Positions 7,677 to 39,278 of a stretch of DNA of 64,000 nucleotides are shown here, in pieces (position 1 is the first letter of the stretch; each line of letters starts with the position of its first letter). Source of the DNA: Caballeronia sp. LZ062 (GTDB lineage Bacteria > Pseudomonadota > Gammaproteobacteria > Burkholderiales > Burkholderiaceae); the NCBI RefSeq assembly GCF_031450785.1, contig NZ_JARTWB010000001.1, positions 806,001 to 870,000 of the forward strand. Reading direction: 5' to 3'. Under the pieces are notes generated by a model, which searched no databases, was not told the origin of the DNA, and was given only the letters and a program-made list of their open reading frames with translations. Position numbers and translations under genes: made by a program.

Positions 7677-7693
7677 GGTGAGTATTTTCGGGA
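7677..7693 (+). repeat. Rep-iteron-like motif outside the origin (left pair, copy 1)
   Basis: GGTGAGTATTTTCGGGA fits the origin iteron consensus GGTGAG-N4-T-N-CGGGA at every fixed base. It lies in the intergenic space between the transporter and GST genes, 29 kb from the main iteron array. Confidence 0.75.
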
Positions 7694-7708
7694 TGGGTGG
7701 CGCCAAAC

Positions 7709-7725
7709 GGTGAGCCGATACGGGA
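7709..7725 (+). repeat. Rep-iteron-like motif outside the origin (left pair, copy 2)
   Basis: GGTGAGCCGATACGGGA fits the iteron consensus fully and is almost identical to the origin copy at 36745. It starts 32 bp (three helical turns) after copy 1, in the same orientation. Confidence 0.75.
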
Positions 7726-7854
7726 GAGCGCGCGCGTATTGTTCGCGAAACGAGAACGGCGAATTGATTTCCGCTCGTATTCTGCTTGCGTCAGCACGAA
7801 CCCATACTGCTTGACAGGAGACCGGGATTCGCCCGGTCCGCAGAGGAGGCTCTC

Positions 7855-8475
7855 ATGAAGCTCTACCATCATCCGTTGTCGGGCCATTCCCACCGCGCGC
7901 GGCTCTTCCTGCATCTGCTCGGCGTCGAGCACGACGAAGTGGAAGTAAACCTCGCCGCCGGCGCGCACAAGACTCCCGATTTCCTGCGCCTCAACCGCTT
8001 CGGTCAGGTCCCCGTGCTGGTGGACGGCGAGCAAGTCGTTCAGGACTCGAACGCCATCCTCGTCTATGTCGCGAAGAAAACCGGCGCGACGCAATGGCTG
8101 CCGGAAACTCCCGCCGAAGCCGCCGCCGTGCAACGCTGGCTGTCCGTGGCGGCGGGGCAGATCGCGTTTGGGCCGGCTGCCGCGCGCCTCGTCACGGTGT
8201 TCGGCAGCAAGTTCAATGTCGATGAAGTCATCGCGCGTGCGCACGCCGTGCTGAACGTGATCGACGACGAATTGCAGAACCGCGACTGGATCGCGGATAT
8301 CGGCAGCGCGCATCCGACCATCGCGGATATCGCGCTCTACAGCTACATCGCGGGCGCTCCGGAAGGCAACGTCGATCTGTCCGGCTACCGCAACGTGCTC
8401 GCGTGGCTCGCGCGCATCGAAGCATTGCCGGGCTTCCTGCCGTTCCGGACGACGGCCGTGGGCCTGCGCGCCTAG
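7855..8475 (+). CDS. Glutathione S-transferase family protein
   Basis: 206 residues from the ATG at 7855 (ribosome binding site gaggaggc). The N-terminal thioredoxin-like half starts [19 protein letters not shown], with the glutathione-binding stretch [21 protein letters not shown], and the C-terminal half is all-helical. Fits a theta/beta-like GST of normal length. Such enzymes conjugate or reduce electrophiles with glutathione; substrate unknown. The next gene begins 24 bp downstream on the same strand, so the two are probably co-transcribed and may share a detoxification role. Two iteron-like repeats sit 130-180 bp upstream. Confidence 0.88.
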
Positions 8476-8498
8476 AGCCACCCTTGACGGAGACGATC

Positions 8499-10574
8499 AT
8501 GCCGATCACCGCCCCATCGCCCTGGCATCGCGGCGAAATCGCGATGCAAACCGCCGCCGGCGTCGCGGAGCGGATGCGCGACGTCGGTTCGCGCGTCGTG
8601 CGTTCGTTCATGCCGGAACAGCATCGGCAATTTTTCGCGCAGTTGCCGTTCATCGTCGCCGGAACGGTCGACGCCAACGGCGACGCCTGGGCCACGTTTC
8701 TCACCGGCCGCCCCGGTTTCGTGCGTTCGCCGGATGCGACGACGCTCTCCGTCGAGCGCACACGTGATCCGCTCGATCCCGCCGACGCCGGTCTCGCCGA
8801 CGGCGCGCCGGTCGGCTTGCTCGGCATCGAGCTGCACACGCGCCGCCGCAATCGCGCGAACGGCGTGATTCATCGCGACAACGCTGCTCACGGGCAAGCA
8901 TTCGAGGTGGCCGTCGAGCAGAGCTTCGGCAATTGTCCGCAGTACATCCAGTTGCGCGACTTCGCGTTCGTGCGCGACGCGTCGGCGCCCTCGCCGTCCG
9001 CGCCTGTCGCGCTCGACGTACAGTCGCCCCGTCTGCGCGCCATGATCGAGCGCGCCGATACGTTCTTCGTCGCGTCCTACTTCGACCGCGAGGACGGGCA
9101 TCGTCAGGTGGACGTGTCGCATCGCGGCGGCAAGGCCGGCTTCGTGCGCGTGTCCGACGACGGCGCCCTGACCATTCCCGACTTTGCGGGCAACCTGTTC
9201 TTCAACACGCTCGGCAACATTGCAGCGAACGGACGGGCGGGACTTGTGTTCGCGGACTTCGAAACCGGCGACGTCCTGCAACTGACCGGCGACGCGCAAG
9301 TCCTTCTCGACTCGCCCGAAACCGCCGCGTTCCAGGGCGCCGAACGCCTCTGGCGCTTCGTGCCGCGCCGCGTCGTGCTGCGCGAAGACGCGCTGCCGCT
9401 GCGCTGGACGTTTCGCCGCGAAGGCTGGTCGCCGAATTCGCTGATGACCGGCGACTGGAACGAAGCCGCGCAGCGCATGAAGGCGGCGGCGCTGGCGGAT
9501 GCGTGGCGGCCGTATCGCGTGAGCCGGATCGTCGATGAAAGCGACGTGATTCGCTCCTTTTGGCTCGAACCGGCGGACGGCGCGGGCATCGTGCCGCACG
9601 CGGCGGGCCAGCATTTGCCGGTGCGCGTCACGCTGCCGGGCGAAACGAAGCCGCTCGTGCGCACCTACACGCTCTCGGTCGGCCCGGCGGACGGCGTGGT
9701 TCGCATCAGCGTGAAGCGCGAAGGCCGGGCGTCGGCGCATCTGCACGACGCGCTGAAAGTGGGCGACATCATCGAAGCGCGTCAGCCGGCGGGCAGCTTC
9801 ACGATCGATCCGTTCGAAGCGCGCCCCGCCGTGATGCTGGCGGCGGGCGTCGGCATCACGCCGATGCTCGCGATGCTGCGTCACGTGGTCTATGAAGGAC
9901 TGCGCAAGCGGCGCGTGCGTCCGGTCTGGCTGATCGCGTCGGCGCGAACGCTCGCGAGCCGCGCGTTCGCCGCTGAGATCGACGCGCTCGCCAGAAGCGC
10001 GGAAGGCGCGGGCGGCGCAGTCAACGTGATACGCGTGCTGAGCGACCCGCGCGGCGCGCAATTGAAACGCGACTACGACGTGTCCGGCCGCATCGACATG
10101 GATCTGCTGACGAGCTTTTTGCCGTTCAACGACTACGACTTCTATCTGTGTGGCCCCGGCGCGTTCATGCAGACGCTTTACGACGGCCTGCGCGCATTGA
10201 ACATTGCCGATGCGCGCATTCACGCCGAAGCGTTCGGTCCCGCGTCGCTCGTTCGCCTGCCGGATCGCGGCGTCGAAATCAGGCCGATGCGCCCGCCCGC
10301 CACCGAAGCGGTGCCGGTGCGCTTCGTGAAGTCACAGCGCGACGCGCAATGGACGCCCGCGAGCGGCACGCTGCTGGAACTCGCCGAGGCGTGCGGCGTG
10401 GAGACGGAATCGAGCTGTCGCGGCGGCACGTGCGGGACGTGCAGAACGCGCATCGTGAGCGGCGCGGTGTCGTATTCGAGCGAGCCGGCGTTTCATGTCG
10501 ATGACGGCGAGGCGCTGATCTGCTGCGCGCGCCCGGCAGCGGACACCGAAGCGGCGCTGCAACTGGACCTCTAG
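8499..10574 (+). CDS. PNPOx-like / ferredoxin reductase / 2Fe-2S ferredoxin fusion protein
   Basis: 691 residues from the ATG at 8499 (ribosome binding site ggaga). Three modules are visible. Residues ~1-330 are pyridoxamine-phosphate-oxidase-like split-barrel sequence with the repeated pattern FLTGRPGFVR and VSHRGGKAGFVRVS. Residues ~345-590 are an FNR-type FAD/NAD(P) reductase with the FAD motif RTYTLS, the nucleotide motif AAGVGITPMLAMLRH and the C-terminal YLCGPGAFM. The last ~90 residues are a plant-type ferredoxin with cysteines in SSCRGGTCGTCRTRI and a fourth cysteine in LICCARP. Probably a soluble electron-transfer oxidoreductase using NAD(P)H, FAD and 2Fe-2S, coupled to a flavin-binding N-terminus. 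Substrate unknown. Similar fusions are annotated in other Burkholderiaceae. Confidence 0.88.
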   Translation: MPITAPSPWHRGEIAMQTAAGVAERMRDVGSRVVRSFMPEQHRQFFAQLPFIVAGTVDANGDAWATFLTGRPGFVRSPDATTLSVERTRDPLDPADAGLADGAPVGLLGIELHTRRRNRANGVIHRDNAAHGQAFEVAVEQSFGNCPQYIQLRDFAFVRDASAPSPSAPVALDVQSPRLRAMIERADTFFVASYFDREDGHRQVDVSHRGGKAGFVRVSDDGALTIPDFAGNLFFNTLGNIAANGRAGLVFADFETGDVLQLTGDAQVLLDSPETAAFQGAERLWRFVPRRVVLREDALPLRWTFRREGWSPNSLMTGDWNEAAQRMKAAALADAWRPYRVSRIVDESDVIRSFWLEPADGAGIVPHAAGQHLPVRVTLPGETKPLVRTYTLSVGPADGVVRISVKREGRASAHLHDALKVGDIIEARQPAGSFTIDPFEARPAVMLAAGVGITPMLAMLRHVVYEGLRKRRVRPVWLIASARTLASRAFAAEIDALARSAEGAGGAVNVIRVLSDPRGAQLKRDYDVSGRIDMDLLTSFLPFNDYDFYLCGPGAFMQTLYDGLRALNIADARIHAEAFGPASLVRLPDRGVEIRPMRPPATEAVPVRFVKSQRDAQWTPASGTLLELAEACGVETESSCRGGTCGTCRTRIVSGAVSYSSEPAFHVDDGEALICCARPAADTEAALQLDL

Positions 10575-10650
10575 ACAACGCGCGATTGCGGACCACTGCG
10601 GCATGCCCGAGAATGCACGGCAACTTACCCGCCCGCTTTTCGCATCCGAC

Positions 10651-11550
10651 ATGGACCGTTTTCAGGCAATGTCGACCTTCGTCACGGTGGTCGAAACCGG
10701 CGGCTTCGCCTCGGCCGCGCGCAAGCTCGACGTCTCGCCTTCGGTCGTGAGCCGCGTCGTGACCGAACTCGAAGAGCGGCTCGGCGTGCGCCTGCTCACC
10801 CGCACCACGCGCGTCGTGCGTCTCACGGACGCCGGCAGCGGCTTCTTCGAAGACTGCCGGCGCATTCTCGGCGAAGTGGACACCGCCGAACTCGCCGCGC
10901 GAGGCACGCACGCGGCGCCGCGCGGCGTGCTATCGCTCACCGCGCCGGTGCTTTTCGGCCGGCTGCACGTGACGCCTATCGTGCTCGACTATCTTTCGCG
11001 CTATCCCGAAGCCGATGCCAACTGCTGGTTCGTCGACCGCGTGGTGAATCTGGTCGACGAGGGCATCGACGTGGCCGTGCGCATCGCTCAACTGCCGGAT
11101 TCGTCGCTTCAGGCGATTCCCGTCGGGCGCGTGCGCCGCGTGCTGTGCGCGTCGCCCGCTTATCTCGCGAAGCACGGCACGCCCGCGCGCCCGGAAGACC
11201 TCGACGCCCACACGATCATCGCGTCCACGGGGTCGTCTTCGCCGCCCGAATGGCGTCTGCACGACGGCGAACGCACGGTGATCGTCCGCACGCGAGCGCG
11301 CCTCGTCACGACGACGAACGATTCCGCCATCGCCGCCGCGCTCGCGGACTTCGGTATCGCGCGGCTCATGTCGTATCAGGTCGCGCAGCATGTGAGCGAA
11401 GGCCGGCTCGTGATCGTGCTCGCCGAATTCGAGCCGCCGCCTCTGCCCATTCATCTCGTCCACCGCGAAGGCCGCCACGTCACGCAGAAAGTGCGCGCCT
11501 TTCTCGATCTCGCCGTGGCGACACTGCGCGCGGATGCATCGTTGCGCTAA
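10651..11550 (+). CDS. LysR family transcriptional regulator
   Basis: 299 residues from the ATG at 10651, chosen because LysR homologues begin at MDRFQAMSTF; an upstream in-frame ATG at 10603 would add 16 residues. The N-terminal winged helix shows SAARKLDVSPSVVSRVVTELEERLGVRLLTRTTR, followed by a periplasmic-binding-like effector domain of normal length. It lies 76 bp after, and on the same strand as, the PNPOx/FNR fusion. LysR proteins usually regulate divergent or adjacent genes, so the GST-oxidoreductase pair is a plausible target. Effector unknown. Confidence 0.88.
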   Translation: MDRFQAMSTFVTVVETGGFASAARKLDVSPSVVSRVVTELEERLGVRLLTRTTRVVRLTDAGSGFFEDCRRILGEVDTAELAARGTHAAPRGVLSLTAPVLFGRLHVTPIVLDYLSRYPEADANCWFVDRVVNLVDEGIDVAVRIAQLPDSSLQAIPVGRVRRVLCASPAYLAKHGTPARPEDLDAHTIIASTGSSSPPEWRLHDGERTVIVRTRARLVTTTNDSAIAAALADFGIARLMSYQVAQHVSEGRLVIVLAEFEPPPLPIHLVHREGRHVTQKVRAFLDLAVATLRADASLR

Positions 11551-11727
11551 ACGAACTAAACGGCGCGTGTGGCCGCTTCGTGAATCTTTGAGGATTCGAA
11601 CGCCCGTTAGCGCGCGAGCCGTGCAAAATGACGGCAAACCATGCAACATAGCCCTCTTCGGCGTATTTGCGCTTCACGTTCCGGCTCGACGAAACCGGCT
11701 CTTCCGAACCACAACGGCTCCCGCACC

Positions 11728-13203
11728 ATGACGAACCCGACCTCTCCCACGAACGAACGCCCGCTCGACATGATCATCTTCGGCGGCGGCGGAGACCTGG
11801 CGGCGCGCAAGCTGCTGCCCGCGCTGTACATGGCGCACTCGCACTGCAACCTGCCCGCCGAAACGCGTATTCTCGCCATCGGCCGCAAGGACTGGACGCG
11901 CGAAGATTATCTGAAGAACTTCATGGAGAAGCAGTCGCGCCCGTTCATCGACGAGAACGCTTTCGATGCCCAGTCGTGGGACAAATTTCTCGCGCTCTTC
12001 GACTACGTGCGCGTCGACGTGGAGAATCCCGACGACTTTCGCCGGCTCGCCGAAGCCACGCGCCAGAACGCGCAGCGCGTGTTCTATCTCTCGACGTCGC
12101 CGGAGCTTTTCACGACCATTTGCGACAACCTTTCTGCAGCCGGCATCGTGGACGACCAAGCGCGCGTCGTGCTCGAAAAGCCGCTCGGCCATGATCTCGC
12201 TTCCGCCCGCGCCATCAACGACGCGGTGGGCCAGCATTTCAAGGAAGAGCAGATCTACCGCATCGACCATTATCTCGGCAAGGAAACGGTGCAGAACCTG
12301 ATGGTCCTGCGCTTCGGCAATCCCATTTTCGGGCCGCTGTGGCAGGCGCCGTACATCAAGAGCGTGCAGATCACGGTGGCGGAAACCGTGGGCGTGGGCA
12401 GCCGCGCGGGCTTCTACGATCACACCGGCGCGCTGCGCGACATGGTGCAGAACCACTTGCTGCAACTGCTGTGCATCGTCGCGATGGAACCGCCCGTTTC
12501 GCTCGATCCTGACGCCGTGCGCGACGAAAAGCTGAAGGTGCTGAAATCGCTGCGCCCGATGAGCGTCGCCGACACCGCGCGCGACACCGTGCGCGGTCAA
12601 TACGCGGCGGGCGCGGTCGGCGGCGAGCCGGTCAAGGGTTATCTACAGGAAGACAACGTGCCGCCCGACAGCCGCGCGGAGACGTTCGTCGCGTTGCGCG
12701 CGCATATCAACAACTGGCGCTGGGCCAACGTGCCGTTCTTCCTGCGCACGGGCAAGCGCATGCAGACGCGGCGCTCGGAAATCGTCATCGATTTCGCGGA
12801 CCTGCCGTTTTCCATCATCCCGAGCGGGCCGCGCAATTACGGCAACCGTCTCATCATCACGCTTCAGCCGGAAGAGTCGATTCAGTTGCAGATGCTCGCG
12901 AAGGAACCGGGCAGCGGTATGCAGATGCTGCCCGTGAACCTGAATCTCGACCTTCAGCAAGCCATGACCCAGCGTCGCGCGGAAGCCTATGAGCGTTTGC
13001 TGATCGACGTGATTCGCGGACGCCTCACGCACTTCATGCGCCGCGACGAACTGGAAGCGGCGTGGGCGTGGGTCGAGCCGATTCTGAATGGCTGGAAGGA
13101 ACTCGGCGACAGGCCGCGCGGCTACACGGCGGGCACGTTCGGCCCGGCGGCCTCGTCCGCGTTGATGGCGCGGGAAAATCTGGCGTGGGCGGAAGAAGGT
13201 TGA
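11728..13203 (+). CDS. zwf: Glucose-6-phosphate 1-dehydrogenase
   Basis: 491 residues, the normal length, from the ATG at 11728. The NADP-binding segment is FGGGGDLAARKLLPALY, and the glucose-6-phosphate active site RIDHYLGKETVQN is intact, including the catalytic His and Lys. It oxidises glucose-6-phosphate to 6-phosphogluconolactone, feeding the Entner-Doudoroff and pentose phosphate routes. No pgl, edd or hexR is beside it, so this is probably a second, stand-alone paralogue on the secondary replicon. The coding region has an upstream in-frame extension to 11641 that lacks family similarity. Confidence 0.95.
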   Translation: MTNPTSPTNERPLDMIIFGGGGDLAARKLLPALYMAHSHCNLPAETRILAIGRKDWTREDYLKNFMEKQSRPFIDENAFDAQSWDKFLALFDYVRVDVENPDDFRRLAEATRQNAQRVFYLSTSPELFTTICDNLSAAGIVDDQARVVLEKPLGHDLASARAINDAVGQHFKEEQIYRIDHYLGKETVQNLMVLRFGNPIFGPLWQAPYIKSVQITVAETVGVGSRAGFYDHTGALRDMVQNHLLQLLCIVAMEPPVSLDPDAVRDEKLKVLKSLRPMSVADTARDTVRGQYAAGAVGGEPVKGYLQEDNVPPDSRAETFVALRAHINNWRWANVPFFLRTGKRMQTRRSEIVIDFADLPFSIIPSGPRNYGNRLIITLQPEESIQLQMLAKEPGSGMQMLPVNLNLDLQQAMTQRRAEAYERLLIDVIRGRLTHFMRRDELEAAWAWVEPILNGWKELGDRPRGYTAGTFGPAASSALMARENLAWAEEG

Positions 13204-13204
13204 T

Positions 13205-14497
13205 TCAGCGCATCGCGGGGCGCGCTGCGCGCCGCGATGCCAGCGCCTTGTCCGCGCCCATCACAGCCGCCAGCACGCCGATTCCGCAGAAAATGCCCGC
13301 GAGCCGAAGCGCCGCGGGCATGGGATCGGACGACCAGTGGTGATCCTGCACGAACACCATAATGAACGCGATGGTGAACTGCCGCCCCACGTAGCTCGCG
13401 CCCTGCGCGCCCGTCTGCACGTGACAGCCCATCCACACGCCCGCGCATAGCGCGAGCATGCACGCGATGTCGTTGTCGCCGATCAGCGGCAAAAGCGCGA
13501 GACTCACCGCGCCCGCGATCAGGCACCCGAGCACGCGCTGCACCATGCGCGCCGCGATAGGCCGGCGCGTCGGCTTGCCGAGCGCCGATGCGGGCAGGAT
13601 CAACACGGCGACCGCCGTGACCAGCGCCTGCGCGAATCCCGGCAGATTCCACGCATACGCGACTACCGCCAGTATCGCCACCGACCACGCCGCATGCCAT
13701 GCGAGGCGCTTGCGCATGGCGTTGGCAGCCTGCGTCGCCTGCATCGCGCCGAGAGCGTGCAGCGGGCCGGGCTGTATGACGGTGACGGTCGCGGTCTCGT
13801 GACTCGATCCATCGACGCGATCGGCCGTCGATGCGGCCCGCGCGTCCGGCATGAGCGCCGCGCCGCGCGACTTGCGATACCGCTGCGCCCCCGCGTGGAA
13901 GAGCGCGGAGACGCCCACGCACGCGAGCGTCCCGACGACGACCTCCGCCACGCGCAGCAACGCGAACGACGCCGTCGCCGAAGCCGACGCGAGCCGATGC
14001 GCATCGAACGTCACCATGAGCGCCGTCACCGCGCCCAACACCCACGCATAACCCGCGTCCGACACGAGCGCGCGATACACCGACACGCCCGCAATCAGCC
14101 CGAGCAGCGGCACGAAAAGCCACGGCGTGTCGCCGATGAGCGGCCCCGCGCTCGCGCCGAGCAATGCGCCCGCAACGGTGCCGAGCACGCGATGCACGCC
14201 GCGCTGCGCGCACGCCGAGAACTTCGACTGCATGACCGCGAAGCCGCTGATCGCCGCCCACCAGATGTGTTCGAGTCGAAAGGCGTACGCAAGCGCGACC
14301 GCCAGCGCCACGGACACCATCGCCTGAGTCGCGAACAGGGCGCGGGCGCGAGTCGGCCGGATGGCGCCGAGTTCGCGCGCGAGCGCGATCAATGCGTCGC
14401 GCACCAGTTCGGTGAGCGCGCTCAACGCAGCGGACGCGCCGCGCGACGATGACGTCGTAGAGGAAGAATGGTGAATCGTCGAATGATCGTGCGGCAT
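13205..14497 (-). CDS. FUSC family (fusaric acid resistance-like / aromatic acid exporter) inner-membrane protein
   Basis: 430 residues from the ATG at 14497. Two blocks of about five to six hydrophobic helices are separated by a cytoplasmic loop of ~80 residues (around residues 215-290), the FUSC/ArAE architecture. The segment HIWWAAISGFAVMQSKFSACAQRGVHRVLGTVAGALLG matches the family's first block (typical tandem WxxIS and Rx-GT-G). Proteins of this family export aromatic or other organic acids, usually with a membrane fusion partner, but none is adjacent. Convergent with zwf, with 1 bp between the stops. Confidence 0.85.
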   Translation of the reverse strand: MPHDHSTIHHSSSTTSSSRGASAALSALTELVRDALIALARELGAIRPTRARALFATQAMVSVALAVALAYAFRLEHIWWAAISGFAVMQSKFSACAQRGVHRVLGTVAGALLGASAGPLIGDTPWLFVPLLGLIAGVSVYRALVSDAGYAWVLGAVTALMVTFDAHRLASASATASFALLRVAEVVVGTLACVGVSALFHAGAQRYRKSRGAALMPDARAASTADRVDGSSHETATVTVIQPGPLHALGAMQATQAANAMRKRLAWHAAWSVAILAVVAYAWNLPGFAQALVTAVAVLILPASALGKPTRRPIAARMVQRVLGCLIAGAVSLALLPLIGDNDIACMLALCAGVWMGCHVQTGAQGASYVGRQFTIAFIMVFVQDHHWSSDPMPAALRLAGIFCGIGVLAAVMGADKALASRRAARPAMR

Positions 14498-15739: not shown

Positions 15740-15756
15740 TCCCGAAAATCCTCACC
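15740..15756 (-). repeat. Rep-iteron-like motif outside the origin (15.7-kb pair, copy 1)
   Basis: On the minus strand this reads GGTGAGGATTTTCGGGA, a full match to the origin iteron consensus. It is 45 bp upstream of the deaminase start codon. Confidence 0.75.
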
Positions 15757-15765
15757 GCAAACCGA

Positions 15766-15782
15766 TCCCGTAACTCCTCACC
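15766..15782 (-). repeat. Rep-iteron-like motif outside the origin (15.7-kb pair, copy 2)
   Basis: On the minus strand this reads GGTGAGGAGTTACGGGA, again a full consensus match. It is offset 26 bp from copy 1 in the same orientation and ends 18 bp before the deaminase ATG, so a bound protein would probably interfere with expression. Confidence 0.75.
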
Positions 15783-22649: not shown

Positions 22650-22666
22650 GGTGAGGGTTTTCGGGA
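22650..22666 (+). repeat. Rep-iteron-like motif outside the origin (22.7-kb pair, copy 1)
   Basis: GGTGAGGGTTTTCGGGA fits the iteron consensus and is preceded by gctga, as in copy 2. It differs only in the last base from the origin copy at 36887. Confidence 0.75.
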
Positions 22667-22712
22667 ACTGCACGGAAGAAGCGCCCGGCAACGGGCTTCG
22701 CAGCGTGGCTGA

Positions 22713-22729
22713 GGTGAGAGTTTTCGGGA
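22713..22729 (+). repeat. Rep-iteron-like motif outside the origin (22.7-kb pair, copy 2)
   Basis: GGTGAGAGTTTTCGGGA is identical to the origin iteron at 37066. It is offset 63 bp (six turns) from copy 1, in the same orientation. Confidence 0.8.
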
Positions 22730-26603: not shown

Positions 26604-28410
26604 CGTCTTCTCCCTCAAGTTCTTTAGTGGGCCGGCAGTCACTGCTGCCGTTGTCTTCCTCTGCGACAAATGGGTGCGACGCCGCGACACCGCCCATTCT
26701 GTCGAGGCCACATTGTTAAATCCAGAAACGCGGTGTGATATTACCGAGCCAAAATTCGTCCAATCAGCAGTTTTAACCATTGCTTACAGTTGCGCAGTGT
26801 GCTTTTACTTCAGCCGGTTGACGCTGGTTGCACTGGCTTAGCGGTCAATCTTGAAGAAAACGCTTGTGGCATTGCGGCGCTAACGATTGAGCGCTGCATT
26901 GTTGCGGTTTTGCCCTTGGTGGGGCGCGGCCCCTTTCTAACGGGCGCGCTGGCAATACCGCGACGGTGCACGGGCGTTTGCCGCGGCGAACGTCGTCGAT
27001 GGACATTCTTCTTTACGCGTACCGGGTGCCGCATGACGGTGACCGATGAAACGTATCGAGCGGACATTGCGACAGGGCTGTTGCCCCAAATTGTCTCACC
27101 GCACGTATCGATTCCTTTGCGAGGATACGAGAACGTCATCGATATCCCGGTTTTGTCGTTGCCGCACTATGCAGATTAACGGCGACGATAGCGGACTTCG
27201 CTGCAAGCCCGATACAGCGAATCAAGTCCGTTTCTCCTCCTATTCGCCTGTTGGGTATTCATTAGAGCCGCTTCGGTGCACTGGAGCTTATTCTTTGCTC
27301 TCAATCAATTTCGGCAGTCTTGGAGCGATGAACAGAAGATGCCGAAAGCGCTTGATAGATCGGATGCATTGCGGCGGAATCGAGGGTCACTCATATGGCC
27401 TCGAGCAGAACAGCAATTATGCGCGCGAAGGAGCAACGGCAAGCCAATCGCTCGCAGTCATGTCATCGCTGAAAATACGCGCAGAAGATGTCAGCGACCT
27501 GCTGTCCCGTCTTGAGTTATTCGCGGACAGCAGGTGCGAAGCTCGGGTTATGGGCTTTCGAATTCCGACAGTCCGATGCCTTCAACTCCCCGGCTCCTCT
27601 TTTGCGACGAAACGTGTCTGCGGGAACTACAGCGCTTGCTCGAGCACACTAGGCTTATTTGCTCCCGAATCTTCTCACCCATGACATGGACAGAATCCAC
27701 GATCAGTGAATTGAGTGGTGGCGGTCTACGGTGAACATAGAGTGTGGCCAGCGTATTGCGTCACACGTGGACACGCCGGCACTTCGCGTGGCGACGCAAT
27801 CAGATGGCTCTGACCGCCGCGCTCCGACGAATTCGCTTCAGCCGCCGACGAGCTGAAGCTCTGCGGCGACGACAGTCGCGCGTTGCACAGTCTCGCGAGC
27901 GGAGCTCTCTCAGATTCGCGCGCTGCCCTCCACGCTCACGCAGGCCATGCGCTAAGGCGCGCCTATCGCAGGCGCGCACCGAACGCGTCGCGAACGTCGT
28001 CGCGCTCAAGGAAAGTGCCGGGACGTGGGCGCCGTAGCCGCAATCATCGCGGTTGCGGCGGGACGTGCCGTCATTCAGCTGCTCGCGCACATCGCAGGCG
28101 CTTCGAAACGGAAGTTCTCGTTCATTACAGCGCACGCGCACGGAGTCCGCGATAACGGCATGAAAATACGCGCATACCGTCGCAAGCGTTGGTTTTGGAC
28201 GAGTCAAGGGGCGCGAAGGACGCGGTGACTAGAGGGCGCAGAAGTTGATCAGGCGTGCGAATTAACTCAACGCATGGCCTTTATGCGGAGTAACCACACT
28301 CATAGTGCTGCGGGCGCGGAATGATGCACTCCTTGCTTACGGCGGCTATCACCGCCGCAGCCGAACACGATCTGAATCAGTGACGCTTCAACTGAACATG
28401 CAAACTCGAA
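26604..28410. other. Gene-poor region of about 1.8 kb
   Basis: Only short, unconvincing frames are present on either strand, with frequent stops and Arg/Ser-rich translations. Base composition is lower in G+C than the flanks in parts. One iteron-like 17-mer lies at 27663. This may be degraded or recently acquired DNA; I recognise no transposon or phage remnant. Confidence 0.5.
27663..27679 (-). repeat. Rep-iteron-like motif outside the origin (27.7 kb)
   Basis: On the minus strand this reads GGTGAGAAGATTCGGGA, a full match to the origin iteron consensus. No second copy was seen within 200 bp, unlike the other distal loci. Confidence 0.7.
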
Positions 28411-28938
28411 TCAGAACCTCACGCGAAGCTGAAATCCAATAGTGAACGGCAGATCGCTGGACGGAATGGGCGGAATCAGGATGAAGTTGGCGCCGACGCG
28501 CTTATAAGCAACCATCACGAGCGGCGCGGCCACCGGGCCGACCATGTGGTCGTGTCCAATGCCCCAGCGACCGTAGTCGTAGCCGGAAATCAGACCGCCC
28601 ATCGCGGCAATCCGTACGAAGCCGAAATGCAAGAATTCTGGCGCCCAGACCCCGCCGCCGTAGAACGACGGCTTAGAGAGCGAATTCCGGAAATAGCCGG
28701 CAGTGACGGCCCACTGCGGCGCGACCCAGCACTCGGCGCCGATGCCCGGATTGAACTGCTCGAAGTGCTTGTCGGGGTGGAAGTGGTGAGAGCCGATCAT
28801 CGCGTCGATCCATAGCCCGTCGTCGCACCATGCCGCCTCGGCTGGAGACGCCCAGCAGACGGCTGCTGAAACGATCAGCAGCGTCGCGGCAAGCAAACGG
28901 GAGCGATGCGGGCGGAAGAGGGACGGCCAAAAGCGCAT
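28411..28938 (-). CDS. Predicted outer-membrane beta-barrel protein
   Basis: 175 residues with a signal peptide (LLAATLLIVSAAVCWASPAEA, cleavage after AEA). The mature part has alternating amphipathic strands with glycines and aromatic residues, and ends in FQLRVRF, the terminal aromatic pattern of outer-membrane barrels. The motif NPGIGAECWVAPQWAVTAGYFRNS recalls PagP/PagL-sized eight-stranded barrels seen in Burkholderia, but I cannot assign an enzymatic activity. No membrane partner genes nearby. Confidence 0.65.
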   Translation of the reverse strand: MRFWPSLFRPHRSRLLAATLLIVSAAVCWASPAEAAWCDDGLWIDAMIGSHHFHPDKHFEQFNPGIGAECWVAPQWAVTAGYFRNSLSKPSFYGGGVWAPEFLHFGFVRIAAMGGLISGYDYGRWGIGHDHMVGPVAAPLVMVAYKRVGANFILIPPIPSSDLPFTIGFQLRVRF

Positions 28939-30828: not shown

Positions 30829-30844
30829 CTTTATGCGCATAAAG
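30829..30844. promoter_or_regulatory. parS centromere site (kbl-tdh intergenic)
   Basis: CTTTATGCGCATAAAG, a perfect 16-bp palindrome identical to the copies beside parAB. It occupies the gap between the kbl stop and tdh start, 9.5 kb from parB, so the ParB-bound complex would span this operon. Confidence 0.85.
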
Positions 30845-32802: not shown

Positions 32803-32820
32803 CGTGTGACGGCGAGCCGA

Positions 32821-32836
32821 CTTTATGCGCATCAAG
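32821..32836. promoter_or_regulatory. parS-like site, one mismatch
   Basis: CTTTATGCGCATCAAG differs from the perfect parS palindrome at one position. It lies 19 bp after the XRE-cupin stop. Confidence 0.6.
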
Positions 32837-32922
32837 TTTCGGTAGCGGCACGCGCATGGGAGCAGGACGTTCGTAGAACGCCCCGCTCCACACAGGGCCG
32901 CCTTAACGGCGGGATCTAAAGG

Positions 32923-33111: not shown

Positions 33112-33313
33112 CTCATTCTCCTTTAGGTTCGGCGCGAAAGAACTTCGCGATGCCCTTAGCGCGATCATTCCCGCAGTCGGCGGAAGTCAGCGCATAGCTG
33201 TAGGATGCGCTTCCTCGCTACGCCTGTGCAGCCGCCGATGTCTGAATCCCGCGTAGGCGGAATCGCACATACACCCGGCTCGAACAGCGCGACGCTACTT
33301 CCAATGGCGCTAG

Positions 33314-33333
33314 TACTGTATATTTATACAGTA
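33314..33333. promoter_or_regulatory. LexA/SOS box
   Basis: TACTGTATATTTATACAGTA is a 20-bp near-palindrome differing from the Escherichia coli SOS-box consensus at only one internal position. The invariant CTG and CAG halves are intact and flanked by TA on both sides. It lies 26 bp upstream of the ATG at 33360. Confidence 0.85.
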
Positions 33334-33359
33334 CAAAGAGCGCTGCTGGGGGCGAGAAC

Positions 33360-33716
33360 ATGGAGTCAAATGGCGAACATCTGGGCAAAAAGCAGTTCGA
33401 ACGCGCCGTGCGCGACCTCGAGCGCATTACTCGGCAAATTGCAGGCCGCTACATCGACAAAGGCGTGCCGCTGACCTGGCGCCTCCTGCACGCCATCGAA
33501 GCGGAGGCGGTTGCCGACCTCGGTTTTGCGGGGCGGCATGAAGCCGCGCTTCGCGAGCTGTTCGCGCGCCCCGAAAGCTTCCAGTTTCCTGAGACCGATG
33601 ACGTCGTGCATATTGCCTCCTCCGATGCCTTGCCCGCCGTATTCGCATTCGCGGTCGACGCCTACGAGTGCGCCGCGCGGCAAGGTCGGCCGCAACTCGC
33701 CGTCGCCGGTCATTGA
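33360..33716 (+). CDS. Orphan protein of unknown function under LexA control
   Basis: 118 residues; start ATG at 33360 with a ribosome binding site gggggcg. Soluble, helix-rich (MESNGEHLGKKQFERAVRDL; AIEAEAVADLGFAGRHEAALRELFARPE), without cysteines pairs, membrane segments or a motif I recognise. The LexA box directly upstream says it is a DNA-damage gene. Its position next to the chromosome-2 replication/partition block suggests a role in SOS control of replication, partition or repair, but that is inference from neighbourhood only. Confidence 0.65.
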   Translation: MESNGEHLGKKQFERAVRDLERITRQIAGRYIDKGVPLTWRLLHAIEAEAVADLGFAGRHEAALRELFARPESFQFPETDDVVHIASSDALPAVFAFAVDAYECAARQGRPQLAVAGH

Positions 33717-33968
33717 TCGCACAGAGCGCGCGGCATCTTTCCGACGTGACCGCTCCCTACGTTAGGCGAGCGGTCGACGCTGACCGCTTGCTTCGCGACG
33801 CTCTCGAACGAAACCGGACCAAAAGACGCCGTGCGTGTGTATCGCGCCAGCGCATTAGACGCGCATCGACATTTCGCCACACATGGACGCACGTGTGACC
33901 TTGACGCAGGCCACTCGAAGCCCGAACCTTTGTGCAAAGCAAACCGCGCAGAGCGCCCCTCGAACACC

Positions 33969-34988
33969 ATGCCGAACACTACTGATCTCTTCGACCAACA
34001 GCGCGCGGACTGGCAGGCCGACCCGCATGCCGCCTTCGATGCATGGCTAGCCCAACAAGAATTCCGCGCTTCGTCAGCCGATGTGTATCGTGCGCAATGG
34101 GGCAACTTTCTTGAGTGGCTCCAGGCGAAGCGCGCGACGCTTCATTCAGTGCAGCGTCCCGTCATCGAACAATTTGTCTCGCAGCTGGATATCCGGCGTC
34201 CGCAGCGGATGCGTTACCTGCGCCTGATTGAGCGTGTGCTCGATCACGTGAGAGAGATTGAGGCAGCCGGGACCAACCCCGCGCGGTTCATCGCTCAAGA
34301 CGGCGACGCGTCCTGGCGCAAAGCGCGCGACAACGAGCCGACCGGCTTTCTAACCCACGACGAGCGCGCGTTGTTGATCGCGCATTTGTTCTCGCCGCTC
34401 GGCGCACTGCCGGCCGGTCAACGCTGGCGCGAGCGGCGCGACCGCGCGCTCGTCGCCGCGTTTCTGGGTGCGGGCGTGAAAACGGGCGAGGCCGCCCAGT
34501 TGACCGTCGATTGCTATGCGCCCGGCGCGCCTTACATGACCGTGGATGCGTCGAATCCGCTTCTCATCCGACAGGCGCGGCTTGCGCCGTTTGCCGTCGA
34601 ACTGCTCGACGGCTGGATTGGCGAGCGCAAATCGGCCGGGTTGGCGGGTGACTTGCTGTTCCCCGCAGCACCCTCCGGCCGGTCCATGCACAAAGCGACG
34701 ATGCTTCGCGCCATCGATGCCGTCGTCGCCGCTTCAGGCATCGCTGCGTCGCGCGTGGCCCGGGCGAGTCCGCAGACACTTCGCAATACCTACGCCGCAG
34801 AACTGTTCGATGAAGGCGCCGACCCCGAGCGCGTCGGCCAATATCTCGGATTCCAGCAGATGATTTCGGTGCATCGGCTGCACCGGGCGTGGCAGGAGTG
34901 GATGGGTGAGCAAATACGGGAGCGCGATATCGCTCAGGCGCAAGCCGGCGCGGGTGATGAACCGGGAAGTACGAGCATCTCACCCTAG
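33969..34988 (+). CDS. Tyrosine-recombinase-fold protein near the origin (integrase-like, active site degenerate)
   Basis: 339 residues from the ATG at 33969. An N-terminal core-binding (SAM-like) domain is followed by a catalytic-type domain that aligns with XerC/D around FLTHDERALLIAHL...RDRALVAAFLGAGVKTGEAAQL and SPQTLRNTYAAELFDEGADPERVGQYLGF. Key residues are altered: the first catalytic Arg is Lys171, the H of HxLR is Gln269 (only Arg272 remains), and the LGH and Tyr positions are LGF and a non-Tyr. It is a conserved neighbour of the kfrA-like and rep genes, so it probably binds DNA without recombining it. An iteron-like 17-mer lies inside its 3' end. Confidence 0.8.
   Translation: MPNTTDLFDQQRADWQADPHAAFDAWLAQQEFRASSADVYRAQWGNFLEWLQAKRATLHSVQRPVIEQFVSQLDIRRPQRMRYLRLIERVLDHVREIEAAGTNPARFIAQDGDASWRKARDNEPTGFLTHDERALLIAHLFSPLGALPAGQRWRERRDRALVAAFLGAGVKTGEAAQLTVDCYAPGAPYMTVDASNPLLIRQARLAPFAVELLDGWIGERKSAGLAGDLLFPAAPSGRSMHKATMLRAIDAVVAASGIAASRVARASPQTLRNTYAAELFDEGADPERVGQYLGFQQMISVHRLHRAWQEWMGEQIRERDIAQAQAGAGDEPGSTSISP
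34905..34921 (+). repeat. Rep-iteron-like motif within the integrase-like gene
   Basis: GGTGAGCAAATACGGGA fits the consensus fully and is close to the origin copy at 36745. It lies in the coding sequence 67 bp before the stop. Confidence 0.7.
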
Positions 34989-35005
34989 TCCCGAAAACAC
35001 TCACC
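34989..35005 (-). repeat. Rep-iteron-like motif between the integrase-like and KfrA genes
   Basis: On the minus strand this reads GGTGAGTGTTTTCGGGA, a full consensus match, facing the copy at 34905 and occupying the 42-bp convergent gap. Confidence 0.75.
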
Positions 35006-35030
35006 TATCGCTTCGACTCACCCATTCGCG

Positions 35031-36227
35031 TCAGACCCGCACTCGCGAACGATGCCGGAAGCTATGCAATGCGGACAGTTTTGACGACGCAGCCCCGGAC
35101 GTTCGCTCGCACTTCGGGCAAGACAACTCGTATTCGCCCTCGTGCAACTGCAATTCCGGCTCTCCGTCCTCGCAGCTCGGACAGGCCACTGGCACCTTCA
35201 CATACGCATCCGCTTCCGTGCCGAGGCCCGCGATTTCGTTCTCGGTCAGTCGCCCGGTAGCCGCCAAAGAAGCGATTAGCTTCCCAGTTTCCGCGCTCAT
35301 GCTGGCTTGGACGCGACGCGCGTCGCGCTCGCGCGTCAAGGCTTCGATTTCGTCCGACTGCTCGCGCACTTGCGATTCGAGTCGATCCGCTCGAGCGCGG
35401 GCGACGCTCAACTGTTGAATGAACTCGAACTCCTTACGGCCAGCATCGCGAATGCTCGCCTGATAAGTCGCCGCGACGCCTCTTAGGCTGTCAAGCTCGA
35501 CCAGCATCGGCTTCACGCGCCGTTCGGCGTCCTTGGCCGCGTCGTGGATCTGCTGAGCGTACCGTTCCGTGTTGCGGCGAAGTTCGTCTTGGAGCTCGTC
35601 GATCCGGTCACGCAGACGCGCTGCCTGCGACTGTTCGGTCGATACACGGTCAGCGAGCGCCGCATTGTCGGCCTGAGCGCGCGCCGTCGCGTCGCGTAAT
35701 TCGGTCTGTAACGCGTTGTTTGTCTCTCGTAGTCGGTCCAGTTCCGTTTCGAGCGACGCGATCCGCACCGCCGCTGCTTCCGCGCGAGCCTCGGCGCGTA
35801 TTCGTGCCTTCTCGACGGTGTCGCAACGAATCTCCGCCTCGCGCGCACTCGCTTCCGCCCGGCGCACACTCTCGTTGACTTCGACGCGTTCGCCATCGAG
35901 CGCGGCGCTCGCATGCAGTCGAGCCTCGGCGAAGAGCTCAGCCAGCAAATCGCCCGCGCGCTCCTGCAGTGCCTGCGGAATACCGCCTGCCTCGACGCGT
36001 ACGCGAAGACTGGAACGCACGGTTTCCCAGAAAGCGTCGATATCGCGCGGGATGTCCGTTGCACTTCCGACTTGTGTCAGATCGCGCACCGCCGTGACTG
36101 AAGGCCGGATTCCGAGATCGAAAAAAAGTCGCCTGCAGGCATGCTGCGAGAGTTCTTGTCGGCGCGCGCCGGCGGCGCGCATGCTTTCTAGCTCTTGTCG
36201 GACGGTGTCACGTACGTGCGAGTCCAT
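35031..36227 (-). CDS. KfrA-like coiled-coil DNA-binding protein with C-terminal zinc ribbon
   Basis: 398 residues from the ATG at 36227; the frame extends to a TTG at 36260 with less support. The N-terminal ~110 residues match the KfrA DNA-binding domain type (VRDTVRQELESMRAAGARRQELSQHACRRLFFDLGIRPSVTAVRDL). A long coiled coil runs from about residue 115 to 345 (many EAR/LE repeats). The C-terminus carries CPSCEDGEPELQLHEGEYELSCPKC, a four-cysteine zinc-ribbon-like knot. KfrA proteins bind operators at their own promoters and polymerise along DNA, helping plasmid stability. Next to the rep origin it is probably an accessory partition or structural factor. Confidence 0.85.
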   Translation of the reverse strand: MDSHVRDTVRQELESMRAAGARRQELSQHACRRLFFDLGIRPSVTAVRDLTQVGSATDIPRDIDAFWETVRSSLRVRVEAGGIPQALQERAGDLLAELFAEARLHASAALDGERVEVNESVRRAEASAREAEIRCDTVEKARIRAEARAEAAAVRIASLETELDRLRETNNALQTELRDATARAQADNAALADRVSTEQSQAARLRDRIDELQDELRRNTERYAQQIHDAAKDAERRVKPMLVELDSLRGVAATYQASIRDAGRKEFEFIQQLSVARARADRLESQVREQSDEIEALTRERDARRVQASMSAETGKLIASLAATGRLTENEIAGLGTEADAYVKVPVACPSCEDGEPELQLHEGEYELSCPKCERTSGAASSKLSALHSFRHRSRVRV

Positions 36228-37919
36228 TGATTTCCAACCAATGTGTTTCGGGGATGACAATTTACGTTACGCTCGATACAACGTCGGCCGCAGCGTTAGG
36301 GTGCGACCGCTTGCAGCTGATTTTCGGACGTCCTAACGGCATACGAACCGCTTGATTGTAGACGATGCGTGTGAAACACGGTGAGGAAGTTGTGCTAAGC
36401 GCTTGTTTTCACGACGTTACCGGCGTTTCGCGTGCAGCAGTGAATGTTTCACAGCCCGTAGGGGAGGTTAACGACCGGCAGCCCTTGCAGATAAGAGCGT
36501 GCTCTCAGTTGCGTTTCATCGGCACGCTCTTGAGAGTAATAAAAGTAAACACCGTTGAACCTTGTTGAAAACAGTTAACGCTCGAGCAAAGCCTTATGGC
36601 GCAAGGCTGTCGAGGCGGTTCGGTGAGAGTTTGCGGGATCGATGGTGAGACTTAACGGGTGTCGCTGGTGGTGGGCTTCGGGATCGACAGTGAGGGGAAC
36701 CGGGAAAGATAGTGAGCGGCTTCAGGGGACACACGCAGCGCACCGGTGAGCCAATACGGGATGGAGCGGCGTCGAACCCGCACGGGCGTGAAGTCGGTGC
36801 CACACGCTGGCTTTTTGTTGGTGAGGATCTGCGGGAGGCGCGCATCAGCATGGCTCCATTCAGTTTTTGTGTCCTTTCTTCCTAGAGGTGAGGGTTTTCG
36901 GGCGAAAACGCTTTCCTGAGGTGAGGTCTTACGGGACGAGCGTGCTAAAAGCCGGTGTATCGCTCTCGAAATCGCCTTCAAAGTGAGCTTTTACGGGAGC
37001 TCGCTGCATCTAGATGTCGCTCAAGAGACTAATTCAATGCTCGACAGCCTCAGACAAAGGTCCAAGGTGAGAGTTTTCGGGAGCTTCCGTCGCTGAGTGG
37101 AGCGTGATTAGGCTCAGGTGAGGAGATACGGGATGGCGTTCTTGCATGGTCGGTTCAAGCAAATCCGGGACAGTAAGATTGGAAAAGTCTCTGCGGTACA
37201 AGGACTTGAGTATCAGGTGCGCGGGTTTGTTGCGACTGTCCTACGCCTTTGCGCGGCTGCCGGGACACGATGGTGAGGTTTTTCGGGAGGGCCGTTCGAC
37301 GATGCAAAACCGAGCGTCAACGGACCGCGATGCCAGCGTTTTTCAAGCCACATGACCTAAGGCGAGGGATTACAGGAACCCAAAGGTGAGGCGTTCCGGG
37401 AGCCTCCCGGAAGGTTGATCGACACTTAGGTGAGCGCTTTCGGGAGCGAGTCGCGCGCAGTCCAACGAGCTATAAGGACACTGGAACCGGTTAGCCAAAG
37501 CGCGCGCGTCGCTAAGGTGAGGCTTTGCGGGAGTCGAAGTCGCGCGTCCGCGTAGCGCCCTGTCGCTTCTAGCCTTGAGGGCGAGCGCGCTAGACGACAC
37601 GGGGTCGATTTTCGAAGGATCGCCCGCTGTCTCGGCCGCACCACATTGGCTGGCGGCCCGAGAAAAAATTTCAGGTGAGTCTATTCGGGAGCAAAACGGC
37701 TAGCGGGAAAAGCGTACCAAAACCGCCGCCGACCGTTTACCCGCGCGCGCTCTGGAAAAATGAGACAGCAGCTTTAGGTGAGCGGTGAGCCTTTTCGGGA
37801 ACGCACCGCAGTGAGTCCGTTCGATGCTGCCTGCATCACCCACGGACGGTGATGCCACCCGGTAGACGCCGTTCACCGCACCCGCTATGCTTGCCGGAAA
37901 TATCGTATCCATTACCTGT
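36228..37919. other. Replication origin region (Rep_3/iteron type)
   Basis: Non-coding DNA between the kfrA-like gene and rep. It carries an A+T-rich stretch around 36535-36590, then at least 15 clear 17-bp iterons over 1.2 kb. I saw no perfect DnaA box (TTATCCACA) in it. A 9-bp inverted repeat TGTGAAACA / TGTTTCACA (36370-36378 and 36445-36453) precedes the iterons on the kfrA side. Open frames within it have no supporting features. Confidence 0.8.
36622..37800 (+). repeat. Rep iteron array (about 15 clear and 4 degenerate 17-mers, one orientation)
   Basis: Direct repeats of GGTGAG-N4-T-N-CGGGA begin at 36622, 36644, 36745, 36820, 36887, 36920, 36982, 37066, 37117, 37272, 37385, 37429, 37516, 37674 and 37784; the 36644, 36887 and 36982 copies carry one or two end changes. 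Degenerate copies appear at 36667, 36689, 36711 and 37361. All point towards rep, as in iteron-controlled Rep_3 origins, and would bind the initiator for both replication and copy control. Spacing is irregular. Confidence 0.85.
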
Positions 37920-39278
37920 ATGGCGACCAGGCGCGCAAAGAAGACCGACGTAGTCAGCCCCAGTTCGGCCGAATTGCGCAAGGCCGTCGAGGCAATCGCG
38001 ATCCAGCCCAAAAGTGGCAAGATCACGCTGCTGACTCGCAAGCTTTTCAACGTCCTGCTTGCGGTGGCGCAGCAGGCAGACGAGTCCGGCGACACATACC
38101 GCGCGCTGTTATCCGATATCGTCGCGAATTCGGCGTTCGACTCGAACGATACCGCGCTCGTTAAGGAACACTTGCGCCGCATGGTGTCGGTGCAGGTCGA
38201 GTGGAGCACCGGTACGTCGAGCCAGAAGCCCGGGCGGAAGTGGGGTATCTCCACCCTGATCGCCGACGCTGAAATTCTCGAAGACCCCTCGACGCGTCGC
38301 GTGTGGGTCGAATTCTCTTTCGCCCCGAAGATCAAGAAGAAGCTGCTCGATCCGGTCCAGTATGCCCGACTGAGCCTGCAGTTCCAAAGCCAATTGCGCA
38401 GCAGCGCCGGCCTCGCGCTATACGAAATCTGCGTCCGATATCTGACGAATCCCAGCCACCTGACGATGCGCGAAACATGGGAATGGTGGCGTCCAATTCT
38501 GTCGGGGACACCTGATACCGAAGCGGGCGACGAGGCAAAGCGCGAATACAAGTACTTTAAACGCGATTATCTGCGTCCTGCGATTGCTGAAGTGAACGCG
38601 GTAACGAATATCTTCGTCGAACTGGTGGAGCATCGAGAGGGGCGGCGTGTTGCGGAGATTCAGTTCCGCGTCACCGAGCGCAAGCAGCCGATGCTCGCGC
38701 TGGATGAGCACCCCAACGTATTCGACAGTACGCTCGTCGATCGCATGGTGAAGATCGGCATCCCGCTTAAGGAGGCGCAGACGCTCTATGCCGACAGCGA
38801 GGAGAATCGGATTCGCGCCGCTTTGTTGATGACGGAGCAGCGCATGCGCAGTACCACACTGCCGCCGGTCCGCAGTGCGGCCGCGTTGTTCAAGGATGCG
38901 CTCAAGAAGGGCTACGCACCGCCGGTGGAAGCGTTACCGCCGACGGCCAACGGCGCGGGACCGCGGGCGGCGAGCGCCTCGGCTGCTGACGACCCGAAGG
39001 CGCGCTTGCTCGGAGAATTCGCGGCGTTTCGGCGTAAGGAAGCGCGTGCGATGTACGAGGAACAAGGTGAGGAAGAACGGGAGCTTGCGCGTCAGAGCTT
39101 CGAGGAAGAGTTGTTGCCGGAACTCGGTGCGCATATGCGCGACGACTGGCGCAAGCGCGGATTGGAATCGAAGCTCGCCGAAACGTCCTTCTTCGACTGG
39201 CTCGCCCGCAAGACGTGGGGTGAGCCGACCGACGGCGACTTGCTCGCCTTCACGCTCAGCCAGTCGCGGGCGGCCTGA
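37920..39278 (+). CDS. RepA/Rep_3-family replication initiator
   Basis: 452 residues from the ATG at 37920 (the frame opens earlier at 37887; the later start gives the natural MATRRAKK N-terminus). Rep_3-type double winged helix visible in KSGKITLLTRKLFNVLLAVAQQ, SALVKEHLRRMVSVQVEW and the SSAGLALYEICVRYLTNPS block, with a less conserved C-terminal half. The protein should bind the iterons upstream. A further iteron-like 17-mer lies within the gene at 39066. No ribosome binding site is obvious, which is common for autoregulated initiators. Confidence 0.88.
   Translation: MATRRAKKTDVVSPSSAELRKAVEAIAIQPKSGKITLLTRKLFNVLLAVAQQADESGDTYRALLSDIVANSAFDSNDTALVKEHLRRMVSVQVEWSTGTSSQKPGRKWGISTLIADAEILEDPSTRRVWVEFSFAPKIKKKLLDPVQYARLSLQFQSQLRSSAGLALYEICVRYLTNPSHLTMRETWEWWRPILSGTPDTEAGDEAKREYKYFKRDYLRPAIAEVNAVTNIFVELVEHREGRRVAEIQFRVTERKQPMLALDEHPNVFDSTLVDRMVKIGIPLKEAQTLYADSEENRIRAALLMTEQRMRSTTLPPVRSAAALFKDALKKGYAPPVEALPPTANGAGPRAASASAADDPKARLLGEFAAFRRKEARAMYEEQGEEERELARQSFEEELLPELGAHMRDDWRKRGLESKLAETSFFDWLARKTWGEPTDGDLLAFTLSQSRAA
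39066..39082 (+). repeat. Iteron-like motif inside the rep gene (weaker)
   Basis: GGTGAGGAAGAACGGGA keeps the outer GGTGAG and CGGGA blocks but has A instead of T at the eleventh position. It is in frame with coding sequence (segment EQGEEERE), so chance is a real possibility. Confidence 0.45.

Follow-up and report, generated by a model that had tools for sequence, protein, structure and literature searches.

The closest described parallel to the locus considered here is chromosome 2 of Vibrio, in which extra initiator sites of the origin type lie on the same replicon near the origin; in V. cholerae, the near-origin iterons outside ori2 titrate the initiator RctB and are inhibitory (PMC3937223). 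For Burkholderia cenocepacia J2315, a legend mentions scattered iterons of chromosome 2 (c2) and a second cluster 140 kb away, and the passages of that paper accessible to us give no count, statistics, conservation, coding site or link to chromosome 3 (c3) (PMC4948915). Here, we consider a stretch of 64,000 nucleotides (the window) from the 1,316,194-bp chromid of Caballeronia sp. LZ062, whose other contigs measure 3.01 and 0.73 Mb. The window holds rep, the gene for the replication initiator of the chromid, an array of 17-bp iterons upstream of it, and further copies of the same iteron at a distance from the array. From sequence comparison, we think it probable, at roughly 0.6, that these distal copies are binding sites of the chromid Rep that have been selectively kept near the origin and that promote once-per-cycle replication by titration and handcuffing.

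Iterons in the window and on the replicon

The iteron, GGTGAG-N4-T-N-CGGGA (GGTGAGN4TNCGGGA), has 21 exact matches in the window, 12 in the array and nine outside it, and shuffled windows hold a mean of 0.01 matches and at most one. The initial annotation had listed nine distal coordinates, each of which is an exact match, and had put the chance level at about 0.01 per window, as the shuffles also do; its count of some 15 array repeats is fair because degenerate copies accompany the 12 exact ones. The scatter, which it had limited to 29 kb, reaches further, with a triple at −39 kb, a single copy at −48 kb and another at −110 kb. Its placement of all sites to the left of rep holds near the origin, the motif scan finding no exact copy in the window to the right of rep, and fails for the replicon as a whole: two exact copies lie ∼516 and 529 kb to the right, so the one-sidedness is a near-origin property and not an absolute one. 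That all distal copies but one are intergenic is correct if the 212-aa open reading frame (ORF) around 27663, which has no Pfam match and was dropped from our home-made gene table, is no gene; the copy at 34905 lies within a recombinase gene.

The motif is largely confined to the replicon that carries rep. In this genome, the chromid has 28 exact copies, the 3.0-Mb main chromosome one and the third contig none (reversed pattern, 0). In ten genomes from six genera (this one, G133, G106, G100, G161, G171, G102, G150, G137 and G148), 87 array and 152 distal copies lie on the rep replicon and nine on 39.6 Mb of other replicons. An equal density on the other chromosome, which the initial annotation had named as the outcome at odds with a role in replication control, is what neither comparison gives (28 versus one; 152 distal copies versus nine). 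Within 130 kb upstream of rep, we find 96 of the 152 distal copies, a density of 73.8 per Mb that drops to 8.5 in the 130 kb downstream, to 2.8 over the remaining replicon and to 0.23 elsewhere, the last value being close to chance (the window-shuffle expectation corresponds to ∼0.16/Mb); the reversed-pattern control gives four matches in total over all ten genomes. All 37 same-genus genomes have copies, 4 to 32 in each (reversed pattern, 0 to 4 each, 14 in total), and nine of 24 genomes from other families have one or two. For these and the following counts, the species are related by descent, such that k-of-n counts are non-independent and p-values indicative only; the genus names of the G-numbered genomes are inferred, the gene calls behind intergenic and divergent counts are home-made, and the rep starts of G021 and G006 are approximate.

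The features of the window are the following:

37887..39278, plus strand: rep, chromid replication initiator of the Rep3 superfamily with WH1 and WH2 (Pfam Rep3_N, Rep3_C)
36622..37800, plus strand: origin iteron array with 12 exact iterons, all on the plus strand (motif scan), and degenerate copies, e.g. at 36644, 36887, 36982 and 37361
36535..36590, no strand: AT-rich stretch bordering the array on its outer side, a candidate unwinding element judged from its sequence
7677..7725, plus strand: distal iteron pair, both exact, 32 bp apart, intergenic; matching pair in 4/4 other same-genus regions
15740..15782, minus strand: distal iteron pair, both exact, 26 bp apart, intergenic; counterpart by neighbour genes, pair or single, in 4/4 other same-genus regions
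22650..22729, plus strand: intergenic pair of distal iterons at a spacing of 63 bp, next to a response-regulator gene; a pair or one copy in 4/4 other same-genus regions
27663..27679, minus strand: distal iteron, single, flanking gene F9 (28411-28938) on its 3′ side (motif scan)
34905..34921, plus strand: distal iteron within the 3′ end of the tyrosine-recombinase gene; motif codons in 28/34 aligned loci
34989..35005, minus strand: distal iteron in the pocket where the recombinase and KfrA-like genes converge (motif scan)
39066..39082, plus strand: one-mismatch copy within rep; exact in 0/80 relatives, one mismatch in 46
33831..34988, plus strand: tyrosine-recombinase gene (PF00589)
35031..36260, minus strand: gene for a KfrA-like DNA-binding protein (PF11740)
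39312..41063, minus strand: partition genes parB and parA (protein family search)
40385..41211, no strand: parS-like perfect palindromes CTTTATGCGCATAAAG at 40385, 41162 and 41196, around and upstream of parAB, with another at 30829

Many of the distal sites recur at corresponding places in relatives. Five same-genus regions share one constellation, which consists of a coding single, a triple, a pair, two loci with a pair or a single each, and a two-site group at −3 kb. Among 80 Rep loci of named records, a copy ∼3 kb upstream is listed in 71, and the bins from 0 to +9 kb (71–80 loci covered per bin) are without an exact copy. The minus-strand copy in the pocket between the recombinase and KfrA-like genes is exact in 71 of 78 loci (two of the 80 are too short), has one mismatch in six and three mismatches in one; as a control, none of 72 downstream stretches holds a copy with ≤1 mismatch. 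The recombinase site could be aligned in 34 of the 80 loci, six of which have gaps or other residues, and sites on the 3′ side of F9 are present in G133, G106, G171, G148, G150 and G137 as well. Conserved ORF extents cover 64% of the territory examined and contain 25 of the 129 distal copies located there; 11 of those 25 belong to the same single gene. The flanks of the distal copies differ from each other, and the fixed motif bases are retained while the flanks diverge. The weaker copy at 39066, which the initial annotation had also listed, has one mismatch and sits within rep; relatives do not retain it as an exact site, and it is probably incidental.

With 12 exact direct repeats upstream of a gene that encodes Rep3_N and Rep3_C, the origin has the make-up of a Rep3-type iteron origin. 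Rep gives a weak match to the R6K Pi protein (PDB 2nra, E 0.003), and its relatives are 77–98% identical across several genera, the closest named one among the matches listed being that of Caballeronia sp. GAFFF1 (97%). No DnaA box with ≤1 mismatch is present in 36200-39400. A string resembling the AT-rich stretch also occurs in the origin regions of G075 and G074. The CTTTATGCGCATAAAG palindromes, with two mismatches to a known palindrome, are probably parS.

Pair spacings of 31–32, 43–44, 62–63 and 83–84 bp recur; we make no claim of helical phasing, given that these spacings come mostly from orthologous Caballeronia pairs. The k-mers around 130 distal sites include 7-mers that are iteron pieces and several 8-mers enriched 5- to 20-fold (9–13 occurrences, perhaps from orthologous flanks), and among them is no clear second motif of the Vibrio 39-mer kind. 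A timer on the main chromosome that uses this motif was considered and set aside, the sole exact copy there (C2:2845561) falling in a 401-codon open frame. One one-mismatch copy (C2:2538869) shares its surroundings with C1:52127 and is part of a repeat on two replicons. In a check for crtS-like sites, the scan of which covers iteron-like elements only, exact off-replicon copies are at about the chance level (nine in 39.6 Mb).

Copies are also seen in other settings. G004:C22 and G021:C52 share one beside ssb- and primase-like genes, which looks like part of a mobile element; in L042 (at 7193) and L043 (at 7553), an exact iteron beside ssb-/primase-like genes is directly preceded by a degenerate copy, probably in a Caballeronia mobile element. 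Another exact iteron (L282; G150:C3:24799; NC_014723.1) is carried by pBRH02, a conjugative plasmid of Mycetohabitans rhizoxinica, with partition genes a few kb away. In reduced genomes of 1.1–1.2 Mb (L121, L122, L123: G066, G113; G086, G123), Rep is present with one to four exact iterons, none listed off the array; those of G113 are at contig ends, beside rep.

Initiator type and a copy inside a gene

What protein reads the distal copies? When the free positions of 119 array copies and 119 distal copies are compared, their log-odds correlate at r = 0.88, both sets preferring A at −1 to −3, T at three places inside the motif, and G followed by C after the core. The iterons of other Rep types are different: GGTANCCNNNYATGGG for Burkholderia chromosome 3, GGTGAANNNATTTGGGG for G179, GGTGMAYNNNNATGGT for G073 and GGTGAGN6CAGGGA for G075. 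For example, the Rep of G073 is 34% identical to that of the window, and in 100 kb around it the G073 motif occurs in the array and distally on both sides within ∼20 kb of rep (reversed control, 0), and the window-type motif has no copy; conversely, neither the G073 motif nor the c3 motif has a match in 893 kb of window-type regions. The array motif changes with Rep type, and the distal copies change too in the one genome tested. Preferences held in common with the array, and a motif that varies with Rep type, speak against another reader protein (KfrA, ParB or an FtsK-orienting one), which we regard as less likely; the parS-like palindrome differs in sequence from the iteron. Together with the replicon specificity, these observations support the "distributed set of initiator-binding loci" of the initial annotation, and we infer that Rep binds array and distal copies alike. 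In L137 (G074), eight iteron-like copies are clustered 6.6–7.1 kb downstream of a ∼40% identical Rep.

One distal copy lies within gene F7, which matches the squalene/phytoene synthase family PF00494 and which we take to be hpnD. The motif in this hpnD-like gene reads TCG-GTG-AGR-ATN-TTC-GGG-A (GTN in some), i.e. Ser-Val-Arg-Ile-Phe-Gly, and it is intact in 38 of 41 group genomes (11/11 region genomes, 27/29 further genomes, 0/1 reduced genome). The exceptions are L248 and L267, with one mismatch each, and the reduced genome G113, in which the copy is lost; of the genes compared, one (L268) is truncated. As an outgroup lacking the window Rep type, 21 family genomes were searched, of which 11 have an hpnD-like gene at E 1e-60, and none of those 11 genes carries the motif. 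The Arg codon of the motif is AGG (24) or AGA (14) in 38 of 40 genes, which makes it the most deviant of 186 scored columns (4.8 bits); the other Arg columns of the gene are mainly CGN (11 region genomes). In L247, Ser (AGC) replaces Arg and the DNA motif is retained. On this codon evidence, the hpnD-like copy is evidently under DNA-level selection within coding sequence. Outside Caballeronia and Mycetohabitans, the readable distances place the gene 9–18 kb downstream of rep; it is at −48 to −67 kb in Caballeronia and ∼178 kb away, motif intact, in G150. A further same-genus genome, the 300-contig draft G025 (C232, C234), has four exact copies including the hpnD-like one and no Rep match; its origin is either lost or unassembled.

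Chromosome-2-type iterons in Burkholderia

Tandem iterons at 23-bp spacing are found in 13 of 16 Burkholderia genomes. In the ten genomes that have rep and the tandem copies on one contig without crossing the record start, these copies lie ∼134–186 kb downstream of rep and in the same orientation as rep (one tandem pair only in G125), a placement that fits the published remark on the second B. cenocepacia c2 cluster. One cluster of this kind, L145 (G161:C2:2775317-2775587), is compact and lies downstream of rep at a distance of ∼148 kb.

Ten of 14 Burkholderia replicons also carry two chromosome-2-type iterons, 32–34 bp apart, upstream of the chromosome-3 rep, at −1.60 to −1.77 kb relative to where the rep match begins. 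These are five of seven G-numbered genomes (G069, G104, G144 and G209 with ≤1 mismatch per copy, and G190 with one exact and one two-mismatch copy) and five of seven named records (B. arboris, two B. pyrrocinia, B. cenocepacia CMCC(B)23006 and B. stagnalis, all with ≤1 mismatch per copy). The pair was not found in G176, G125 or two B. multivorans records; G125 and one of the latter, both within the 14, are probably the same strain. It was likewise not found in a Paraburkholderia c3-like replicon, in two small plasmids with more distant Reps or in C4 of G171. In the plasmid collection, 218 records have a c3-like Rep, of which we examined all seven at an identity of at least 95% and three others; two stretches were added by accession. 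The reversed motif, with one mismatch allowed, matches twice in 27 kb of CMCC(B)23006 and not at all in nine other records. The DNA surrounding the pair hardly aligns, and the pair is therefore a conserved island. In G069, a further exact copy of the c2 type lies 20 kb upstream. Separately, a single c3-type iteron is located 10.5–12.3 kb downstream of c3 rep in six of the 14 (G069, G144, G190, G176, L285 and L288) and looks intergenic in G069.

We put forward tentatively, at somewhat less than an even chance, that the Burkholderia c2 initiator may directly control the c3 origin via the conserved pair, in which case firing of c3 would depend on c2 initiator freed or titrated by the c2 cycle. 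If this is true, c2-to-c3 control, the dispersed c2 sites and the selected hpnD site would add up to an initiator-based replicon hierarchy, with c2 before c3.

Readings of the distal sites and comparison with known systems

How might such sites act? When the origin fires, the forks would soon duplicate the distal sites; the added sites would absorb free Rep and would probably also pair (handcuff) with the origin iterons, and the origin would be blocked from refiring until Rep accumulates. In this way, a plasmid-derived origin could gain chromosome-like once-per-cycle timing. The distal copies have the attributes expected of titration sites, being of the origin type, off the origin on the cognate replicon, and near the origin, hence duplicated early. 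In B. cenocepacia, c2 is phased as well as chromosome 1 (c1) and c3 is more random, and foci segregate in the order c1, c2, c3, with c2 nearly always ahead of c3, as far as the accessible passages report (PMC4948915); many distal sites on c2-type replicons and few on c3-type ones agree with this phasing. We favour titration with handcuffing because of this agreement and because iterons outside ori2 titrate in V. cholerae.

A number of observations weigh against this reading, either outright or as a rule for such origins. The distal copy number varies widely, from 6 to 25 among the ten genomes, and the single hpnD-like site is retained more strongly than plain number-based titration predicts, even in G025 with no Rep match. 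Upstream sites outside Caballeronia are mostly oriented away from the origin (57 versus 11), an orientation that titration does not need. Strand composition alone, with upstream leading-strand G/C of 1.03–1.14 in six genomes, is seemingly too small an effect for 57:11; we build no argument on polarity, because orientations in Caballeronia are mixed. Deletions of single V. cholerae sites had little effect (PMC11711613, PMC3937223). As to other Rep types, 40 kb of G179 contain no own-motif copy off the array, 100 kb of G075 contain a single full-motif copy off the array (at +5.5 kb), and c3 replicons have at most two own-type copies beyond 2 kb of rep, a count that the pattern may put too low. 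A longer G073 pattern has 12 matches genome-wide (reversed control, 1), of which four fall on another contig, and it also matches at scattered places in two sister genomes. Because chromids with other Reps (c3, G179, G075) have few distal sites or none in the stretches covered, and because of the G073 hits on another contig, distal sites are no general rule of such origins.

The main rival, in our view, takes its start from the hpnD site. Some distal sites, chiefly this one, could be position-dependent timers or switches, similar to crtS or DARS, that remodel or release Rep at fork passage, in place of passive titration. In favour of this are the retention of a single site in 38 of 41 genomes despite a rare codon, and once despite an amino-acid change, its readable distances of 9–18 kb downstream of rep in genera other than Caballeronia and Mycetohabitans, and the one own-type site that six of 14 c3 replicons have at 10.5–12.3 kb downstream. 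Finding such timers in further systems is a next step according to the accessible part of a 2026 survey (PMC13342612). However, the position of the hpnD site is not fixed: in Caballeronia the gene stands 48–67 kb upstream, and in G150 it is ∼178 kb away and still carries the intact motif. Several enriched 8-mers aside, no clear second motif surrounds the distal sites; we consider a timer-like role of single sites rather unlikely. It is still less probable that Rep bridges distal iterons and the array, thereby folding a domain of >100 kb as an aid to origin cohesion or segregation. Rep-type initiators are able to pair iterons, and the sites are paired and cluster around ori and par with parS-like sites among them, but near the origin they are strongly one-sided.

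We find it quite improbable that Rep is a transcription factor whose sites regulate adjoining genes. Between divergent genes lie 36 of the 104 intergenic distal sites for which both neighbours were called, several of these from Caballeronia, and a positive effect of RctB on one V. cholerae gene, VC1803, is described (PMC11711613); the same authors conclude, in the part accessible to us, that RctB appears to regulate itself only (PMC11711613). The loci shared by several genera are not promoters: one falls within hpnD, another at −3 kb where the 3′ ends of two genes converge, and a third flanks F9 on its 3′ side. The genes next to the remaining sites mostly vary from genus to genus or lack a family assignment. 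Hardly credible, finally, is the notion of functionless relics, left by duplicated or transposed origins or by the spread of a mobile repeat. The far-from-origin Burkholderia tandem array could be a duplicated piece of origin, and a one-mismatch copy does stand in a repeat on two replicons (C1:52127, C2:2538869); the distal flanks are nevertheless mutually different, with fixed bases kept as they diverge, and the codon-level retention of the hpnD site disfavours relics.

Titration with handcuffing by selectively kept Rep sites thus remains the reading that we prefer, and it lends itself to experiment. In this beta-proteobacterial group, the initiator sites form a conserved set that can be counted. 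One of them, within a gene, could be eliminated by silent changes, and a cross-replicon site is added in some Burkholderia; titration, handcuffing and c2-to-c3 coupling are thereby directly testable. The scattered sites and the pair at the c3 origin suggest how such bacteria may time the copying of several chromosomes. The initial annotation knew of no description for Burkholderia chromids, and this has to be qualified in that the B. cenocepacia legend mentions scattered copies (PMC4948915); for the remainder, the open-access literature yielded no account of conservation, coding site or c3 pair, and an earlier description may exist in subscription papers and supplements, which lay outside its scope. 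No full text of the open-access library searched combines Caballeronia and iteron.

We close by setting the chromid beside known systems. V. cholerae crtS is an initiator site of one replicon on another, and the c2-type pair by the c3 origin may be a comparable case; crtS differs in being a non-iteron site on chromosome 1 that acts on chromosome 2, whereas here c2 iterons adjoin the c3 origin and control would run from c2 to c3. The iteron plasmids P1, F and R6K share with the chromid a Rep3-type initiator, iterons and the logic of titration and handcuffing; their extra iterons lie within a few kb, whereas the chromid sites are spread over >100 kb. In E. coli, datA and dispersed DnaA boxes are near-origin sites that are duplicated early and reduce free initiator (PMC3937223). 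The initiator is a different one, and datA promotes DnaA-ATP hydrolysis, to which nothing here points. The iteron of B. cenocepacia J2315 c2 is the same as ours, which is the reverse complement of the published c2 consensus (PMC4948915). Vibrio chromosome 2, with which we began, also has RctB sites within coding sequence, in VC0643 and VC1643 (PMC11711613). Unlike it, the chromid has another iteron sequence, 6–25 exact distal copies per genome as opposed to five in Vibrio, no recognised 39-mer-like motif, conservation across genera and codon-level selection at one coding site, which suggests that chromosome-like control of a plasmid-type origin arose outside Vibrio with different parts.

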